This document shows, in pieces, positions 6,951-18,675 of a stretch of 22,983 nucleotides of DNA. The notes under the pieces are model-generated. The model was not told the DNA's origin. It searched no databases and saw only the letters and a program-made list of their open reading frames with translations. Made by a program: the position numbers and the translations under genes. Location of the stretch: the IMG/VR virus record IMGVR_UViG_3300038648_000070, positions 1 to 22,983 of that record; one strand, written 5' to 3'. Position 1 is the stretch's first letter; each line of letters begins with the position of its first letter. The DNA is from a virus.

Positions 6951-6954
6951 CCTA

Positions 6955-7006
6955 CTCCCTCTCCGCGCCGGTTCTCCTATCTAGGAGATCGGCATTTGAG
7001 AGGGAG
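6955..7006 (-). promoter_or_regulatory. Inverted repeat masking the ribosome binding site after thyX
   Basis: On the minus strand CTCCCTCT (7006-6999) pairs perfectly with AGAGGGAG (6962-6955). Nested inside is a second stem, TCTCCTA/TAGGAGA, flanked by CCG/CGG. The 3' arm AGAGGGAG contains the Shine-Dalgarno sequence of the 207-aa gene (start 6950). There is no T-run, so it is not a standard terminator. It may restrain translation initiation or be a processing site. Confidence 0.5.
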
Positions 7007-7014
7007 CTACTGAC

Positions 7015-8682
7015 CTATGGCGCTACTCTTCCGTTCTTAACAAACGCCTCATGCGTTATCGGGAATTGTCCTTTGAAGAACTCTTCCATTGTCTCGGCAG
7101 CTTGGGCGATTTCCCACATCGGGTGGGAAGGGTATGCAGCGTCGTCATGTTCGGTACGAAGGGAGAGAAAGTGCATGATCGAACGTGCGTTGGCTGTCGC
7201 GTACATAGCGGTGAAAGTATTGACAGGGAGGACCATCCGTGCAACTTCATTACCTATCCCGTTCTCTAGCATTGTGGTATATCTATCATAAGCATCGTAA
7301 GCGTTCGCCTCTAGGGACGTCTTCACTAATTGATATTGCTCTGCTGTCCCAGGTTCGAACTTCGGCCTAGCACTGGTGCCTGCATTAATAAGAGGGCGGT
7401 GCTTGGGGGGGATATAGAACAACGGTGGTAACACCGAATATCTGCCACTCACCTCGTTATAGCTCCACGCCACCCTGTGCCTGTGCCACTCACGGAAAAC
7501 AAAGATGGGAGCCTTAACCAAGAAAGTGAAGGCGTTGTGTTCAAAAGGCGTATTGCCACACCACATAGGCTTACCGCGGCGGCGGACGTACAAGGTGCCA
7601 TTCGGGACGCTCACACAATGCACCATGCCATCATAAGGCACTACTGTCACCTGCTTAGCCCGATCCCCGGGTGTCCATCCTATCCTAGGCTCAGAATTAC
7701 GATCACGATACACAGTCACTCTATAAAGCGGACGCTCACCGAACGCACCTTTACGCCTCACGTCAGGAGCAGTCTCGCTCGCTACCAAACCCACTTTAAG
7801 CGCCAATTCCTGCACACCATCTACTACGTGGCGGCTCACTGTTGAGCACGTTACTTTACCACTAGCGCTCACCGAACCATCACCTTGTAAGAAACCAGCC
7901 AGCAATGCCTCAAGAGTTTCAAGGTCACCATGGAGCAACAACTCCCTGGGAAAACATCTATCCCGCTCTGTGGTATACGTAGCTTGCGCCCACTCACGCA
8001 GTTTACAGGACACGTCAACCAGGAGAAAGCGCTCAGGTCCACCTGATACCACGTTGCCTATCTTCCCACCGTACTCTTTGAGCCAAGCAATCTTCCGTGG
8101 TCGTCGCAAATGAAACAAAAGATCAGCCGTACCATCCGCCACTAAGAACCCAATAATAGCCGCTTCATCGGGAGCATGGATACTACCACCCTGCCATACA
8201 CCGCCAGCAAGACGCAAACGGTGGGAGCGATCAAGCAGTTGTCGTGCTGGGTACAGCCCAAAGGGCGTTTCTTCATGACGCCGTGGCGCCGCCACCATGC
8301 GATGATCAAGAGTCACAAGCGCGTCCACAGCACTTGTCTTAACACTCAACATCGGCCCAACCCACGACTTGTGTACAACACGCTCAGCAGCCTGGTACTC
8401 CACCTCATCGGTAATTAGATTGAGTGTGACGAATGTCTCAGACCCGTCCACCTCTGGCCAATGTTTCCAGCCGTCGCTTGTCAGAACGTCCGTCTCGTCG
8501 TCATAGCATCCATGCCGATGCTTCATGAGATAGTTGATGAGTCCACCAATCTTTTCGGTGTTGATCTCATCCTCAGCACGCTCGCCTTTGGTAGACACCC
8601 AGGCTGCCCGAGCTATAGAGACGTCATCTGCCATAGAATCGATCATCTTGACGGTTATATCTGAAGTAAATTGGACTTCCAC
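7015..8682 (-). CDS. thyX: Flavin-dependent thymidylate synthase ThyX interrupted by an intein
   Basis: ThyX makes dTMP from dUMP using methylene-tetrahydrofolate, NADPH and FAD. The 555-aa product is two ThyX exteins (1-58 and 378-555, together about 236 residues, a normal ThyX size) around a 319-aa intein (59-377). The C-terminal extein starts TPFEHNAFTFLVKAPIFVFR and carries the ThyX signature RHRVAWSYNEVSGRY at about 401-415. The signature spacing looks one residue longer than the usual RHR-x7-S. The intein interrupts the conserved HG/TPFEH site, so splicing is needed for activity. The start is GTG 8682, with AAAGGAGAG two bases upstream. A terminator and a structured leader lie directly upstream. 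Placement of a nucleotide-metabolism gene among structural genes is unusual and suggests a separate insertion. Confidence 0.93.
   Translation of the reverse strand: MEVQFTSDITVKMIDSMADDVSIARAAWVSTKGERAEDEINTEKIGGLINYLMKHRHGCYDDETDVLTSDGWKHWPEVDGSETFVTLNLITDEVEYQAAERVVHKSWVGPMLSVKTSAVDALVTLDHRMVAAPRRHEETPFGLYPARQLLDRSHRLRLAGGVWQGGSIHAPDEAAIIGFLVADGTADLLFHLRRPRKIAWLKEYGGKIGNVVSGGPERFLLVDVSCKLREWAQATYTTERDRCFPRELLLHGDLETLEALLAGFLQGDGSVSASGKVTCSTVSRHVVDGVQELALKVGLVASETAPDVRRKGAFGERPLYRVTVYRDRNSEPRIGWTPGDRAKQVTVVPYDGMVHCVSVPNGTLYVRRRGKPMWCGNTPFEHNAFTFLVKAPIFVFREWHRHRVAWSYNEVSGRYSVLPPLFYIPPKHRPLINAGTSARPKFEPGTAEQYQLVKTSLEANAYDAYDRYTTMLENGIGNEVARMVLPVNTFTAMYATANARSIMHFLSLRTEHDDAAYPSHPMWEIAQAAETMEEFFKGQFPITHEAFVKNGRVAP
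7552..8508 (-). mobile_element. Intein with LAGLIDADG-type endonuclease in ThyX
   Basis: A 319-residue intein. It begins with Cys59 of the ORF (CYDDETDVLTSDGWKHW, a splicing block A) and has a block B-like LVTLDHRMVA. Two degenerate LAGLIDADG motifs are present (IIGFLVADG and LLAGFLQGDG), so the homing endonuclease looks intact. It ends ...MWCGN before Thr +1. The block G penultimate residue is Gly rather than the usual His, and a Cys precedes it; Asn is present. Missing the penultimate His is a known variation but often slows Asn cyclisation. The boundaries are set by the ThyX extein match on both sides. Confidence 0.9.
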
Positions 8683-8692
8683 GACTCTCCTT

Positions 8693-8740
8693 TAGAAAAG
8701 AAAAAGCCAGTGGAGGTTGAAGCGCTACCTCTCCACTGGC
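8693..8740 (-). terminator. Rho-independent terminator just upstream of thyX
   Basis: GCCAGTGGAG (8740-8731) pairs perfectly with CTCCACTGGC (8715-8706) on the minus strand around a 15-base loop. The stem is followed by a TTTTTCTTTTC tract. It ends about ten bases before the thyX start and overlaps the approach to its ribosome binding site. No promoter is visible between it and thyX, so thyX expression probably depends on read-through or regulated antitermination. Confidence 0.85.
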
Positions 8741-8851
8741 CTCGTTCTCGGACGTGCCCTTTAGCCCAATCTTATCGGTGAGCGTCAACCTTCGGATTGC
8801 TAGCCGTACACTGGTCCTATCGGGTTCTCCACGCTCTGGGTACCCCGTCTA
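8694..8851 (-). ncRNA. Structured leader or small RNA between a strong promoter and a terminator
   Basis: A strong promoter (8858-8885) should start an RNA near 8851, and the terminator ends it near 8694, giving about 155 bases with no convincing ORF. Pairings seen by eye are CGGG/CCCG near the 5' end, GGAC-CA-GTG (8817-8809) with CAC-GTCC (8756-8750), and TAGCAATC (8802-8795) with GATT-GG-GCTA (8771-8762). The element CCAGTG (8814-8809) could instead pair with CACTGG in the 3' arm of the terminator, which would break it. That is the logic of an attenuator. No known riboswitch or tRNA was recognised; it may alternatively be an independent small RNA. Confidence 0.55.
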
Positions 8852-8857
8852 TTAATC

Positions 8858-8885
8858 AGTATACACGTTCCAAGGTGGTTGTCAA
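8858..8885 (-). promoter_or_regulatory. Sigma-70 promoter of the thyX leader
   Basis: TTGACA at 8885-8880, a 16-base spacer and TATACT at 8863-8858. The -35 box lies in GCTGACTTGACA (8891-8880), identical at two other promoters in the window. On the opposite strand 8874-8886 reads GGTGGTTGTCAAG, which matches the mycobacteriophage L5 stoperator consensus at all but one position, so a repressor site overlapping the -35 is possible. Confidence 0.75.
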
Positions 8886-8896
8886 GTCAGCACATC

Positions 8897-9451
8897 CTAT
8901 CGCTCAGGCAGAGAGGCCTTGGCTTCCTTTGCTATGTCAGAACCCACCCGGACCTTGGATACGCCAGGCGACAGAGAATCCAACCTGTCCTCAAGAACCT
9001 TCATCTGGCTAGCCTTGGCGTCCACTTCCACGGCTATTTCCCTCAGGCGGTTCAGAGTAATGGGGTTCGTTATACCCTCTACCTTACCAACGAACGTCTT
9101 GATCTGGCTGTTGAAGAGAGCCTTCATGGCTGTTTCCGACATGGCGTTCGGAGTGGCTTGTAGTTCGGCTGTGTCTGGCTCGTCATCAATCAAAACAAGC
9201 GGCACAAGACGACCGTTCCTAAAAGGGTTAACGTCCGTGCTTACACAAGCTTCCTCATAAAGATGCCTTTCCAATGGGGTGATTGTCATCGTCTTCTTGA
9301 GCCCCTGAATCCTTTGAGTGGTCGGCTTACCCAACTCGTTGACACGAGTGATATAAGTCTCACCGGGAACGTTGTGCTGCCACGTTTCGACTCTTAAAGT
9401 CTCCAGAGCAGCGGGGGTAAAGTTTCTAGTTTGAGTTCTGATCTGTGCCAT
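8897..9451 (-). CDS. Head-associated protein of unknown function
   Basis: A 184-aa protein directly downstream of the capsid gene and its terminator. The N-terminal half is mixed (RVNELGKPTTQRIQGLKKTM), while the C-terminal half is helical with coiled-coil character (about residues 125-165, ITNPITLNRLREIAVEVDAK). It starts at ATG 9451 with AAGGGAG upstream, and a plausible promoter lies at 9484-9513. I do not recognise the family. The position suggests a capsid-associated or connector-assembly protein. It ends at 8897, only 12 bases before the -35 element of the thyX leader promoter. Confidence 0.6.
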   Translation of the reverse strand: MAQIRTQTRNFTPAALETLRVETWQHNVPGETYITRVNELGKPTTQRIQGLKKTMTITPLERHLYEEACVSTDVNPFRNGRLVPLVLIDDEPDTAELQATPNAMSETAMKALFNSQIKTFVGKVEGITNPITLNRLREIAVEVDAKASQMKVLEDRLDSLSPGVSKVRVGSDIAKEAKASLPER

Positions 9452-9513: not shown

Positions 9514-9561
9514 AAAACGCAATTACCCGACGCAAACGCCGGTTTGAGTCTGATCCCTTAA

Positions 9562-9589
9562 CAAAAAAGAAGGGGCCTTTCGGCCCCCT
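9562..9589 (-). terminator. Rho-independent terminator after the major capsid gene
   Basis: GGGGCC (9587-9582), a GAAA tetraloop and GGCCCC (9577-9572) on the minus strand, followed by TTCTTTTTTG. This is a short GC stem with a stable loop and a T-run, placed 22 bases after the capsid stop codon. It closes the head-gene transcript. Confidence 0.92.
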
Positions 9590-9611
9590 CTCTCCCATCC
9601 CGAAGGATTGA

Positions 9612-13775: not shown

Positions 13776-14492
13776 CTAACTTGGATAAGAATAAGCTCTC
13801 GTGCCCTGGCGTGGCTTAGGAGGTTGACCACTCCCATTGGAGATCCCCTTCCTAGAACCACCCACCTTTTTGCTATAGCTATAGTTCCCTACCCGCTTAG
13901 GAATGGGAGGTTTTCCTAACAACAAACGCGCATCATTAAGAGCAAGCCTCATCACTTGAGTAACACGAGCTTCAGTACGGTGCCACATGGTAGCTATCTC
14001 CCAGTACTGATAACCCTCCAAGGCAAGAGTAAGACACTCAGCTTCTTTAGTAGGCAGTTGAGAAATAACCTCTTTCAAGAGAGTTTCTTGAGTGTCAGCT
14101 ATCTCATCAAAAGGAGTAGCAAAAGAAGCCTCAGGATGACCAACATACCAAATCTCAGATGGGTTCTTGGCCTGATGTTTTCTTAGAGACCCGGCCACAA
14201 AATCGTCTAGATAACAGACCGAAGGCTTGTAATCATCAGCCGCCCTACAAGAACTCAGCCGCCGCCACGCATCACGCGCCCCGCCTTGAACGCGAATAAA
14301 GGCCCAGCCCTGGAATGTCCCACGCCCATCCCAAGACTGGGCCGCTTGCCAGAGACCCTCTAACGCCCCACCAACAACGTCGTCAAACCACAGGCTGGCC
14401 TCTGGGAACCTTGTTAATTTCTTAGCTTCGTTGAAACCTATTTTCCGTGCCCAAGCTGCGTTTTCTTGGACTAACTGCTCAGGCTGGGACAA
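13776..14492 (-). CDS. Sigma-70-family RNA polymerase sigma factor-like protein
   Basis: A 238-aa protein with the two core sigma regions. Residues 36-80 resemble region 2 (FDDVVGGALEGLWQAAQSWD, then TFQGWAFIRVQGGARDAWRR, like the flagellar/WhiG-type core). Residues 138-192 form a region 4 helix-turn-helix (LPTKEAECLTLALEGYQYWE, then a recognition-helix-like TEARVTQVMRLALNDARLLL). A basic, Gly/Ser-rich tail follows. The TTG start at 14492 overlaps the upstream 46-aa gene by 14 bases; a later start cannot be excluded. The expected role is redirecting host RNA polymerase to phage promoters, probably late ones. Its position between accessory and head genes makes it a candidate timing switch for the morphogenesis operon. 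Confidence 0.78.
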   Translation of the reverse strand: MSQPEQLVQENAAWARKIGFNEAKKLTRFPEASLWFDDVVGGALEGLWQAAQSWDGRGTFQGWAFIRVQGGARDAWRRLSSCRAADDYKPSVCYLDDFVAGSLRKHQAKNPSEIWYVGHPEASFATPFDEIADTQETLLKEVISQLPTKEAECLTLALEGYQYWEIATMWHRTEARVTQVMRLALNDARLLLGKPPIPKRVGNYSYSKKVGGSRKGISNGSGQPPKPRQGTRAYSYPS

Positions 14493-14689: not shown

Positions 14690-14760
14690 TGATAAGTGAC
14701 AAAAAGAACCACCCGAATGCGCTCCGCCTCTTCCTCGGTTTGGGCAAACCGATCACCCAT
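14632..14760 (-). CDS. Small ORF coupled to the 77-aa gene
   Basis: A 42-aa ORF whose ATG at 14760 overlaps the end of the preceding gene. The first half (MGDRFAQTEEEAERIRVV) looks like a normal charged helix. The second half looks less protein-like, while frame -1 becomes more protein-like at the same point. See the finding on a possible frameshift. Function unknown. Confidence 0.35.
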   Translation of the reverse strand: MGDRFAQTEEEAERIRVVLFVTYQCPVTAILVRKPRCSCKNS

Positions 14761-14986
14761 TGGAGGCGACTCCTGTTCGGTGCCCGAGGAATAAGCGGAA
14801 CCCTCTCTTGTCAGGAATCTCCTTCCGGGGTCTAAACGTGGTCTGGCCCTGCACGTTGCCTAAACGATCTGTCCATATGACTCCAACACGCTCTGCAAGC
14901 GCCATTCTCGAAGCTGTAAAGAGCCTAAAGTCCGGCCCTGACTTGAATGTACTTGCCATCTTCGAAAGCTGAACCTCGGAGCGCAC
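14753..14986 (-). CDS. Small basic protein of unknown function
   Basis: A 77-aa frame from GTG 14986. An internal ATG at 14959 (MASTFKSGPDFRLFTASRMA) is an equally likely start and gives 68 residues. The protein is basic, with a beta-like middle (VGVIWTDRLGNVQGQTTFRP). It lies in the accessory cluster between the glycosylase-fold gene and the small ORFs and overlaps the next ORF. I do not recognise a family. Confidence 0.45.
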   Translation of the reverse strand: MRSEVQLSKMASTFKSGPDFRLFTASRMALAERVGVIWTDRLGNVQGQTTFRPRKEIPDKRGFRLFLGHRTGVASNG

Positions 14987-15045
14987 TACTGTTGTCGGAT
15001 GGACGAGGGCTGTCGCGTGTTACTCGGTCGTGGAGTTTTCGGTCA

Positions 15046-16149
15046 TCAGTAGTAACGGGTAGCCTCTAGGGGCGACCCATATACCGTCTGCTTAGTGCAA
15101 ACGGCGTTGAACGGGCACTCATGGCAAGCCCAGTTCTCTTCGGAGCAGACTCGTCGGTTGAGCCAATAAAGGTTGTCGAGCACTGTTGTAGGGGTACCCG
15201 AATAGCGCGCCACCTCGGTGAGGGCGAGCATCACTGCCCGCCTGAGGACGAGAGACTCGTCAGGAGTTAGTGGCTTCCGCTCGACTAGCTTGAGGGCCAA
15301 CTCCGGCGGAGGGAGAACAAGCCCCTGACGAAGCGCTTGTTTTACCAAGTGGTAGTCAATGCCCGGTAGTGGGTCGCGATCAAACGCGGCCAGGCCCGAT
15401 CCGCTAAGCATGATGGCATTCACCATTGTGAGCTTCTGGACTGGGTCGTCAAAGGCTCTGAACTCGGAACTCAGACTGGCGAAGCGCTCCAGTGAGCCGG
15501 CAGCGGCGTCAACGACGTTCTTGAACTGGCCGTCCCAGTGCTCGATCAAGCGCTTTCCCAGGTCGCGGAGGTTCGCCACGCGATCGGCCAGAGCGGGCAC
15601 AAGCGGGAGATTACCCTCATCGTCGATGAATGCTCGCCTCATCTGGTCGTAGCGAAGTTGAGCGAGCCACTCGGCGTTGAGGGATAGATCCCCACTCTGT
15701 GTTGCCATTAGCAGGCGTCGCCACATGAACATTGAGCCGCGTTCCCTTTGACCGCCAACGACTCCTTGGGAGGGAACCAAGCGCCCACCCACAAGGGACC
15801 AGAAGCGAAAGTTGATAGCATTGCCGACGGCAAGGTACTGGCACCGGTTGTCGGGAGAAGCGTCGACATTCCAGTACAGAGGGTCATCCCATGCGGCGGG
15901 AGCCGGCGTGCCCGCCCTGAACCGCTCCTCTAGGAGCGAAGCTACCCCCCTGACCTGGTGCTCGTTCACGAGGGCGACGGCTCCGTCCATCCTGCCTAGC
16001 GTGACTAACGAGGAGACCATCGCACCAGCATAGGCACTAGGTGTGACGGCTTCCTGCTTGGTTTCGAAGTTGCAAGAAGAGCCGTCCGGTGATACCAGCT
16101 TCCAGCAACCACTACGGTAAACAACTTCATAGTCTCCGGGAGATATCAT
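15046..16149 (-). CDS. Qng1-like glycosylase-fold protein with Nth-type 4Fe-4S motif
   Basis: A 367-aa protein from ATG 16149. This start overlaps the stop of a 41-aa gene as TGATG, so I prefer it to an upstream GTG at 16194. Two segments recall the queuosine nucleotide salvage glycosylase family (Qng1, DUF2419), which has a DNA-glycosylase-like fold: CQYLAVGNAINFRFWSLVGG and FDDPVQKLTMVNAIML followed by PGIDYHLVKQALRQGLV. The C-terminus has Cys335, 342, 345 and 351, spaced C-x6-C-x2-C-x5-C, exactly the endonuclease III/MutY iron-sulfur loop. It may release a base from a nucleotide or from DNA, for instance in 7-deazaguanine metabolism. The gene is visibly GC-richer than its neighbours, suggesting recent acquisition. 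The substrate cannot be told from sequence. Confidence 0.6.
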   Translation of the reverse strand: MISPGDYEVVYRSGCWKLVSPDGSSCNFETKQEAVTPSAYAGAMVSSLVTLGRMDGAVALVNEHQVRGVASLLEERFRAGTPAPAAWDDPLYWNVDASPDNRCQYLAVGNAINFRFWSLVGGRLVPSQGVVGGQRERGSMFMWRRLLMATQSGDLSLNAEWLAQLRYDQMRRAFIDDEGNLPLVPALADRVANLRDLGKRLIEHWDGQFKNVVDAAAGSLERFASLSSEFRAFDDPVQKLTMVNAIMLSGSGLAAFDRDPLPGIDYHLVKQALRQGLVLPPPELALKLVERKPLTPDESLVLRRAVMLALTEVARYSGTPTTVLDNLYWLNRRVCSEENWACHECPFNAVCTKQTVYGSPLEATRYY

Positions 16150-16274
16150 CAGGAATGCTCGTCTTCCCAAGATTCCATCACAACCCAGCAACACCAGGGT
16201 TCAAGCTGGTCGTTTTTCTCTACCCACATCTCACAACCTGGAACACCTAGATCTTTAACATAATAACGTATCAT
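16149..16274 (-). CDS. 41-aa protein coupled on both sides
   Basis: A short gene filling the gap between the DUF3039-type gene and the glycosylase-fold gene. ATG 16274 overlaps the upstream stop as ATGA, and its TGA overlaps the next ATG as TGATG. The product is Trp/Cys/Glu-rich (MIRYYVKDLGVPGCEMWVEK at the start, a WCCW motif near residue 27). The tight overlaps on both ends are strong evidence for translation. Function unknown. Confidence 0.65.
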   Translation of the reverse strand: MIRYYVKDLGVPGCEMWVEKNDQLEPWCCWVVMESWEDEHS

Positions 16275-16906: not shown

Positions 16907-18640
16907 TTATTTATCGGACGGATGGAACTCCATTTCGGATTTAACTTGATGTAAGATTTTACGAGCCCGGTCAGAACGAGGAAAAGCAAAACGAAACTTA
17001 GGAGGATCGGCAATGTACATTAACCCTTCTTTATCCACCAGAGCCTTTTCAGTAAGACCTTGAGTCTTAGCCCGAGTCCAAACGGTACGCTTGTGAATGT
17101 GATTCCCCATTTTGTCGTCGTAGTGGTAACTGCCCACAGCCTCCTCACCTAAAAAAACAAAGTTGGCTGCCCGATAGAGACCTCCGGTATGGCCAGCAGC
17201 TGGATCGGCAAAAGAAATAATCATTTCATACGATGACGGCAATGACTCAATTGAACGAGACAAAAACCAAGTACCCGTATTTTTAGGTAAAAAATCCACC
17301 AAAACAAACCTTCGCAACTCTAAAGTTGGTCCCGGTTCCACACTCCCCCAACCAAACCGTCCAGCGCCAGGGTAAGATGAGCGCCCGAAGACAGCAACCC
17401 CCACCAGCATTTCCTCGTGCCAAAGCCCACTATAGAACAAGGCCGAAGGACAAGTATGTGTATAGTGATTCAAAACAACAAAATCACGTGCTTCTTTAAT
17501 ATTAACTTGACCGCACCGCAGATTACTTAAAAGAATAGGAGAAGAAATAGAAGGAAATAAAAGCTTTAATTCACACAATACTTCTTCAAGTGTAACTTCC
17601 AAGGAGGAAACAGTTTCAGTCCAGCCCTGTTCCCCTTTTAACTCAGGCACGTGCAGATGTCCTGCATCTCGCCATTGAGCTATAATTTTTGATTCGACAT
17701 CGCTGACTAATTGTCCGTCCAGCGGTCCTATCACACGGTGAACGATCGTTTCTCTTTCATTGGCAAAGAATTTCAACCGCTGTTGAATATTTTGAGATTT
17801 TCCAATTTTAAAAGCATGAAACCCAGGAAACTCAATAAGATAGAGGTACCCAGGACGATGGACATCAAATCCGCTGGTAGCACAAGAGGGACAACCCCCT
17901 CTTCCGCGTGATTGTGCTGTTTGCAAATCATTAAATGATGTTTTATGAACAGTATCACAAACAAGATGCAAATAGGGCAAAATATCATGAGTCAACCCTG
18001 GTTCAAGTCTCTTCCACTTCCAAATAGTCAACCAATCCTCAATCTCAGAATCGGATAAGGATCGTTTCTTTGAGGTACACGAAGTACATCCTTGAGACTC
18101 TAGTCTCTCAACATTTGTTAAACTCACTAACTGTTGATGTCCACATCTATGTTTACCCTGAATAGCTTGTTCTTTGACTCGCGGGATCTCTAGACATTCC
18201 CACCCCATAAGTTTAAATCTTCTTTTTAATTCAACATCAACTAGTTGGGAGCCGTGTGGTGAGCAAAACTTACAACCACTAAACCCCCGATCTTCAGTAA
18301 TATGATAGAGATACTTAAGTTGTTCTGTCCCGCAGTTTAGATGACGAGCTAAAAAAGGCTCATCCATTCGAGTGATAGAACCAGTACGCACCCACCCAGT
18401 ACCCACGAGGCGACTATCAACCACCTCTTCACTGAGATGACGTCCTTTCGTAGCACAAGCCTTACACCCTTGAGAATCCCCTTTCCGAGGTGCTTCTAAA
18501 AGGCCCAAGCGAACAGAAGCTTCAGTACCACAAACCAAGTGAACAGCCAAAAAAGGTTGATTGGTATTCCCGACCAAAGGACCAGTACGCCGCCACCCAG
18601 CGGCAGCCACGCGCTTATCTAAATCAAGAGACAAGGCCAT
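16907..18640 (-). CDS. GIY-YIG homing endonuclease with four zinc modules and Mom-like GNAT domain
   Basis: A 577-aa protein. Residues 30-255 contain four zinc-ribbon or treble-clef-like modules, each with an H/C pair and a CxxC (C37/C59/C62, C103/C123/C126, C166/C185/C188, C228/C250/C253). Residues 264-324 form a GIY-YIG nuclease variant (GYLYLI, FKIGKS, an Arg in NIQQRL, a Glu in DVESKI). Residues 372-523 match the Mom-like GNAT pattern (LELRRFVLVDFLPKNTGTWF, then IISFADPAAGHTGGLYRAAN). It shares the layout of the gene at 1274-2563 but with two more zinc modules. The gene has its own promoter directly before the ATG, is AT-rich by eye, and sits between the portal and a membrane protein gene. 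Nicking or cutting DNA at a zinc-module-defined site fits the family; the GNAT role is unknown. Confidence 0.8.
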   Translation of the reverse strand: MALSLDLDKRVAAAGWRRTGPLVGNTNQPFLAVHLVCGTEASVRLGLLEAPRKGDSQGCKACATKGRHLSEEVVDSRLVGTGWVRTGSITRMDEPFLARHLNCGTEQLKYLYHITEDRGFSGCKFCSPHGSQLVDVELKRRFKLMGWECLEIPRVKEQAIQGKHRCGHQQLVSLTNVERLESQGCTSCTSKKRSLSDSEIEDWLTIWKWKRLEPGLTHDILPYLHLVCDTVHKTSFNDLQTAQSRGRGGCPSCATSGFDVHRPGYLYLIEFPGFHAFKIGKSQNIQQRLKFFANERETIVHRVIGPLDGQLVSDVESKIIAQWRDAGHLHVPELKGEQGWTETVSSLEVTLEEVLCELKLLFPSISSPILLSNLRCGQVNIKEARDFVVLNHYTHTCPSALFYSGLWHEEMLVGVAVFGRSSYPGAGRFGWGSVEPGPTLELRRFVLVDFLPKNTGTWFLSRSIESLPSSYEMIISFADPAAGHTGGLYRAANFVFLGEEAVGSYHYDDKMGNHIHKRTVWTRAKTQGLTEKALVDKEGLMYIADPPKFRFAFPRSDRARKILHQVKSEMEFHPSDK

Positions 18641-18646
18641 TCACTA

Positions 18647-18675
18647 ATCATACCACGTCTTCAACGAAGAATCAA
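18647..18675 (-). promoter_or_regulatory. Promoter of the 577-aa endonuclease gene
   Basis: TTGATT at 18675-18670, a 17-base spacer and TATGAT at 18652-18647. The ATG follows after six bases (leaderless). The -35 region reads GTTGACTTGATT, a diverged copy of the GCTGACTTGACA element. Confidence 0.65.

Follow-up and report, generated by a model that had tools for sequence, protein, structure and literature searches.

A promoter, an untranslated leader and an intrinsic terminator precede thyX in an uncultured phage and may gate its expression

The analysed window is a whole IMG/VR viral record of 22,983 bases from an uncultured phage. On its minus strand the genes follow the order terminase (with intein remains), portal, sigma-like protein, scaffold, major capsid protein (MCP), ORF184, thyX, ORF207 and connector-like genes, several of the gene names in the window being inferred from gene order and sequence without a family match. 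A DNA similarity search in phages found no near relative among named phages; the MCP is about 50% identical to that of phage GX15bay (mangrove soil) and the ThyX about 50% identical to enzymes of Streptomyces and Rhodococcus phages. Among the structural genes, at 13776-14492 on the minus strand, lies one for a protein that resembles sigma-70 in regions 2 and 4. A sister contig (L009/L003/L018, IMGVR 3300014493), 98-99% identical to the window, carries the same promoter–leader–terminator–thyX cassette; it is missing a segment that in the window holds a queuosine-salvage-like gene (Pfam Q_salvage; 14721-16152, minus strand). The layout of this cassette, all on the minus strand, is real: a promoter at 8885-8858 is followed by a leader, an intrinsic terminator at 8741-8694, a ribosome-binding site and the GTG start codon of thyX at 8682. 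The features of the locus are:

8897..9451, minus strand: ORF184, a structural-region gene upstream of the thyX leader, from gene order in relatives
8858..8891, minus strand: promoter with upstream extension, GCTGACTTGACA, a 16-base spacer and TATACT, from a consensus scan (11/12)
8742..8851, minus strand: untranslated leader of about 110-112 nt between the predicted start site and the terminator, with no ORF kept in the sister contig
8809..8814, minus strand: CCAGUG, which could extend the candidate antiterminator via CACUGG of the 3' arm (string present)
8777..8791, minus strand: AGGUUGACGCUCACC, a candidate antiterminator strand with 8729-8714 of the terminator as its potential partner, from the minimum-energy fold of 140-146-nt transcripts
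8694..8741, minus strand: intrinsic terminator, hairpin GGCCAGUGGAGAGGUAGCGCUUCAACCUCCACUGGC and then UUUUUCUUUUCU, from a hairpin energy and T-tract scan
8683..8693, minus strand: thyX ribosome-binding site AAAGGAGAG, directly after the T-tract, from the sequence
7015..8682, minus strand: thyX, interrupted by a LAGLIDADG intein (Pfam Thy1, LAGLIDADG_3, Hom_end)
6951..7014, minus strand: very stable hairpin between thyX and ORF207 (-36.7 kcal/mol, z -4.9)

The core promoter, TTGACA-16-TATACT, matches 11 of the 12 consensus bases, and its TTGACA begins twelve bases past the stop codon of ORF184. The 12-mer GCTGACTTGACA occurs in exactly three exact copies in the window (2603-2592, 8891 and 16608-16597), each preceding a -10 box, and with two or fewer mismatches it gives six matches where 2.1 are expected, a number reached by none of 100 shuffles. 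A fourth related promoter is found at 18675, and in the sister contig the promoter before the thyX leader is unchanged. The promoters of the same class at 2597, 16602 and 18675 abut ORFs, with an ATG 5-7 nt past the -10 box (at 2563, 16567 and 18640), so a long leader is unique to the thyX promoter within the same-class set of this phage. Among 86 listed promoters of the same consensus from viral contigs, the layout in which a terminator precedes the ORF is uncommon: the present population alone has a strong terminator ahead of its first ORF, and one other promoter has a weak one. The form CTGACTTGACA-16/17-TATACT occurs in at least 120 stretches of IMG/VR against roughly 14 expected by chance, and thus seems to be a form of promoter that is widespread in viruses. 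Two Mom-family proteins (DNA modification) are encoded at 1274-2563 and 16907-18640, both on the minus strand and each with its own promoter placed right at the start codon; both contain repeats rich in Cys and show a weak, sub-threshold match of the GIY-YIG/T5orf172 kind.

About 110 nt past the predicted start site, the arms GGCCAGUGGAG and CUCCACUGGC form the terminator hairpin, followed by UUUUUCUUUUCU, AAAGGAGAG and GTG. The hairpin (8741-8706) has an energy of -22 kcal/mol (z -4.5) and a T-rich tail (8705-8694), and a scan of both strands for a hairpin with a T-tract finds just two in the window that reach -18 kcal/mol, while shuffles average 0.125. Since GCTGACTTGACA recurs before -10 boxes and such terminators are rare in shuffles, promoter and terminator can be taken as real sequence features. 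From the end of the T-tract it is 11 bases to the thyX GTG and 1-2 bases to the Shine-Dalgarno sequence, which leaves no room for another promoter before thyX, and a consensus scan of the minus strand between 8858 and 4966 finds no promoter-like site at 9/12 or better. As to promoter and terminator, the preliminary description, which had proposed a strong promoter and a terminator about ten bases before the thyX start, holds good. The other strong terminator of the window lies right behind the MCP gene (9550-9600, minus strand). Such a post-capsid terminator, often with a promoter then following before ORF184, recurs in most relatives (L007-L041), though the sequences differ.

Over the 110 nt of leader before the terminator the folding energy is -27.8 kcal/mol compared to a shuffle mean of -27.6 kcal/mol (z -0.06), a result that reveals no structured sensor upstream of the terminator and does not bear out the several nested pairings described earlier for this stretch. 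The roughly 155 bases had also been described as lacking an ORF, and this is upheld: a possible leader peptide, in a 54-aa frame opening with TTG at 8788, was rejected as the sister contig has a 1-base insertion that breaks the frame, the caveat being a 10-codon GTG frame that remains in the leader without support. The element CTTGACAACCACC, which resembles the L5 stoperator, was dropped as a stoperator-like site, being a single occurrence and within chance. The lack of excess structure upstream of the hairpin would suit a partial terminator that does no more than set gene dosage, with the leader as a mere spacer and with thyX and the connector genes lowered relative to ORF184, as happens after capsid genes. 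Such a use would also be in line with the strong terminator, then promoter, found behind the MCP gene both here and in most relatives. However, it leaves unexplained why the strong promoter lies before rather than after the terminator and why a long leader is found at this promoter and at none of its sister promoters, and we regard gene dosage as a rather improbable explanation of the whole.

thyX is evidently cargo that was inserted at a site of variable content. Scans by ORF184, by MCP and by MCP alignment recovered the sister contig, L004/L005 (MCP 87% identical) and about 25 more distant relatives, which mostly lack thyX at the corresponding place. The homologues of ORF184 and ORF207 are adjacent in most relatives without thyX, mostly 8-58 nt apart and with no terminator between them, so that transcription normally runs from ORF184 into the genes that here follow thyX. 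In L005 the corresponding place holds a distinct ThyX that belongs to the same Pfam family and stands behind a 234-nt gap. This different enzyme, together with the side-by-side position of ORF184 and ORF207 in most distant relatives, is what marks thyX as cargo. The 234-nt gap was rejected as a homologue of the leader, its similarity not being significant (P 0.10) and its hairpin having no T-tract; searched against Rfam at gathering and at lax thresholds it gave nothing. Between the MCP gene and the ORF184 homologue of L005 (5982-6757) is an apparent TnpB remnant with an IS200/IS605-like end, identified by eye, behind a promoter of the TGACTTGACA class. The LAGLIDADG intein of the window ThyX is absent from the sister contig, which has an intein-free, 236-aa copy (L018); the ThyX of L008 carries two intein-like insertions, and in L249, a more distant relative, the Thy1 match is broken by an in-frame TGA. 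The hairpin at 6951-7014 holds the ORF207 ribosome-binding site in its 3' arm, has no T-tract and is identical in the sister contig; it is a possible translational gate or processing site for ORF207.

The search for the leader in related phages, proposed at the outset, yielded the sister contig and no other homologue. DNA similarity in phages gave nothing, nhmmer and BLAST over all fetched loci returned the sister only, 18-mer scans of IMG/VR returned the sister and one chance match inside a coding gene, and an MCP search of genome contigs gave no match. Between window and sister the 155-nt RNA has zero substitutions and one 1-base insertion adjoining the terminator. Fourfold sites are substituted at 41 of 1157 positions (3.5%), and at that rate a substitution-free 155-nt RNA has P 0.004. 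However, 25% of all 155-nt windows in the sister alignment are likewise free of substitutions; as such windows are this common in the local background, the argument for constraint is weak, and conservation in the sister was dropped as evidence.

The same findings bear on whether the 155 nt are an independent phage small RNA gene that happens to lie before thyX and acts in trans or on the host, thyX then living on leakage or on an unseen promoter. The stretch does form a complete transcription unit with its own promoter and terminator and no conserved ORF, and actinophages offer a precedent: in D29/L5 (PMC5712189) and WC1 (PMC10986025) very abundant short non-coding RNAs arise from strong promoters, and downstream genes are expressed more than 90% lower. 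Hints of an actinobacterial host come from the promoters at ORFs, from DUF3039 and from the Streptomyces and Rhodococcus phage relatives of ThyX. Against this, fold stability outside the terminator does not exceed chance, no homologue is found elsewhere, and the terminator abuts the thyX ribosome-binding site, a placement that an independent gene does not need. A separate small RNA gene is thus an unlikely, if appreciable, alternative.

The position of the terminator directly before the ribosome-binding site (8693-8685) is that of a riboswitch or RNA attenuator, and the preliminary description had suggested a new riboswitch in which CCAGTG switches between two exclusive partners. In the full RNA at equilibrium the terminator pairs have a probability of about 1.0 and the pairing of CCAGUG (8814-8809) with CACUGG one of 2e-6, while the pairing of GUG with CAC (8756-8754), at about 0.6, comprises just 3 bp. 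Growing transcripts were then folded stepwise and the minimum-energy fold read at each length. In transcripts of 140-146 nt this predicted fold pairs AGGUUGACGCUCACC (8791-8777) with GGUAGCGCUUCAACCU (8729-8714), that is, with the loop and 3' arm of the terminator; at 146 nt part of CCAGUG:CACUGG joins the antiterminator-like helix, and from 148 nt on the terminator is the winning fold. The modelled order, antiterminator-like helix and then terminator, is the one expected of an attenuator and makes this pairing a candidate. Its duplex energy is reached by 89 of 600 dinucleotide-shuffled leaders (P 0.15) and by 42 of 600 genomic stretches (P 0.07), and for this reason an attenuator pairing cannot be claimed. 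The two-state switch therefore survives as a string match and as part of a longer antiterminator-like helix, but not as an alternative state at equilibrium.

Membership of a riboswitch class is not supported for the thyX leader, as there is neither an Rfam match nor a structured sensor: the window gives no match at the gathering score, and relaxing E to 10 adds nothing beyond chance level. A thyX riboswitch that senses a ligand, or an attenuator bound by a protein, would alternate between antiterminator and terminator folds and would draw on the joint pairing of 8814-8809 and 8791-8777 with the terminator loop and 3' arm at 140-146 nt. The complementarity within chance, the lack of a family, a would-be sensor no more stable than shuffles and the related thyX genes of 79 other viral contigs, which mostly lie in tight operons without such a leader, all speak against it, and we consider it most improbable. 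Very unlikely too, if marginally less so, is an undescribed attenuator in which 8814-8809 and 8791-8777 would capture the terminator co-transcriptionally and a nucleotide, folate or protein signal would gate thyX and the connector genes.

The best explanation of the locus, to which we would give slightly better than an even chance, is a terminator-gated 5' leader of the thyX cargo cassette. A strong host-type promoter at 8885-8858 would initiate an RNA of about 155 nt; the majority of polymerases would halt at the intrinsic terminator before the thyX ribosome-binding site and release the short RNA as the main product, while those reading through would make thyX and probably contribute to the connector genes behind. 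Read-through could start at the 8885 promoter or at the ORF184 promoter (9513), and may be passive or be raised by the antiterminator fold or by a phage antitermination factor; the short RNA is perhaps a mere by-product. The sequence itself shows the promoter followed by the terminator, no good promoter from there until 4966, and thyX lying between usually adjacent genes. As no promoter at 9/12 or better occurs until 4966, thyX, and probably ORF207 and later genes, need passage through the terminator; promoter and terminator presumably work in the host, with thyX expressed by read-through. The terminator gate is supported by a promoter and a terminator that are both beyond chance, by a long leader at the thyX promoter only, and by the antiterminator-like minimum-energy fold at 140-146 nt that gives way to the terminator in longer transcripts. 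Counting against it, the leader without its hairpin has no more stability than chance would give, and the antiterminator complementarity falls short of significance. Read-through would be unnecessary if an unrecognised promoter, possibly one for the phage's sigma-like factor, lay inside thyX; the sigma-70-like protein at 13776-14492 might serve promoters missed by the consensus scan. The proposal that the leader controls thyX is thus retained in its anatomy, with a terminator before the gene and no promoter between the two, but not in its riboswitch form. If the gate is regulated, read-through would be the means by which the phage controls its thymidylate synthase as well as the structural genes that follow. 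The cassette, which appears to have come with the cargo gene, may also be a test case for how metabolic genes are fitted into structural operons without polar effects.

Among known systems, bacterial attenuators and riboswitches (Rfam cis-regulatory families) share with the thyX leader a terminator that immediately precedes the gene's ribosome-binding site, but the thyX leader has no family match or extra structure. In the late switch of phage lambda, PR'-tR', a strong promoter yields a short untranslated transcript that ends at an intrinsic terminator, and read-through gives the late genes. This order of promoter, short untranslated RNA, intrinsic terminator and read-through genes is one that the thyX locus matches in anatomy alone. 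In lambda the antiterminator is Q (PMC7171158); the next gene at the thyX locus is a metabolic cargo gene, unlike in lambda, and of the three Q families (PF06530, PF03589 and PF06323) the first two were searched and gave no match in these fragmentary records. In the Gifsy-1 prophage one promoter yields both the short RNA IsrK and a read-through mRNA (PMC4825925), an anatomy similar to that proposed for the thyX leader in that a short RNA runs to an intrinsic terminator with some read-through into phage genes. No sequence relationship between the two was found, and what distinguishes IsrK is that it has been shown to act in trans on its own read-through mRNA and to control an antiterminator. 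At Pleft of the Cluster A actinophages D29 and L5, too, a strong promoter precedes a non-coding RNA, and the genes that follow are expressed at a much lower level (PMC5712189). These RNAs are about 500 nt long and have no evident stem-loop terminator, whereas the thyX leader is about 155 nt long and ends in a canonical one.
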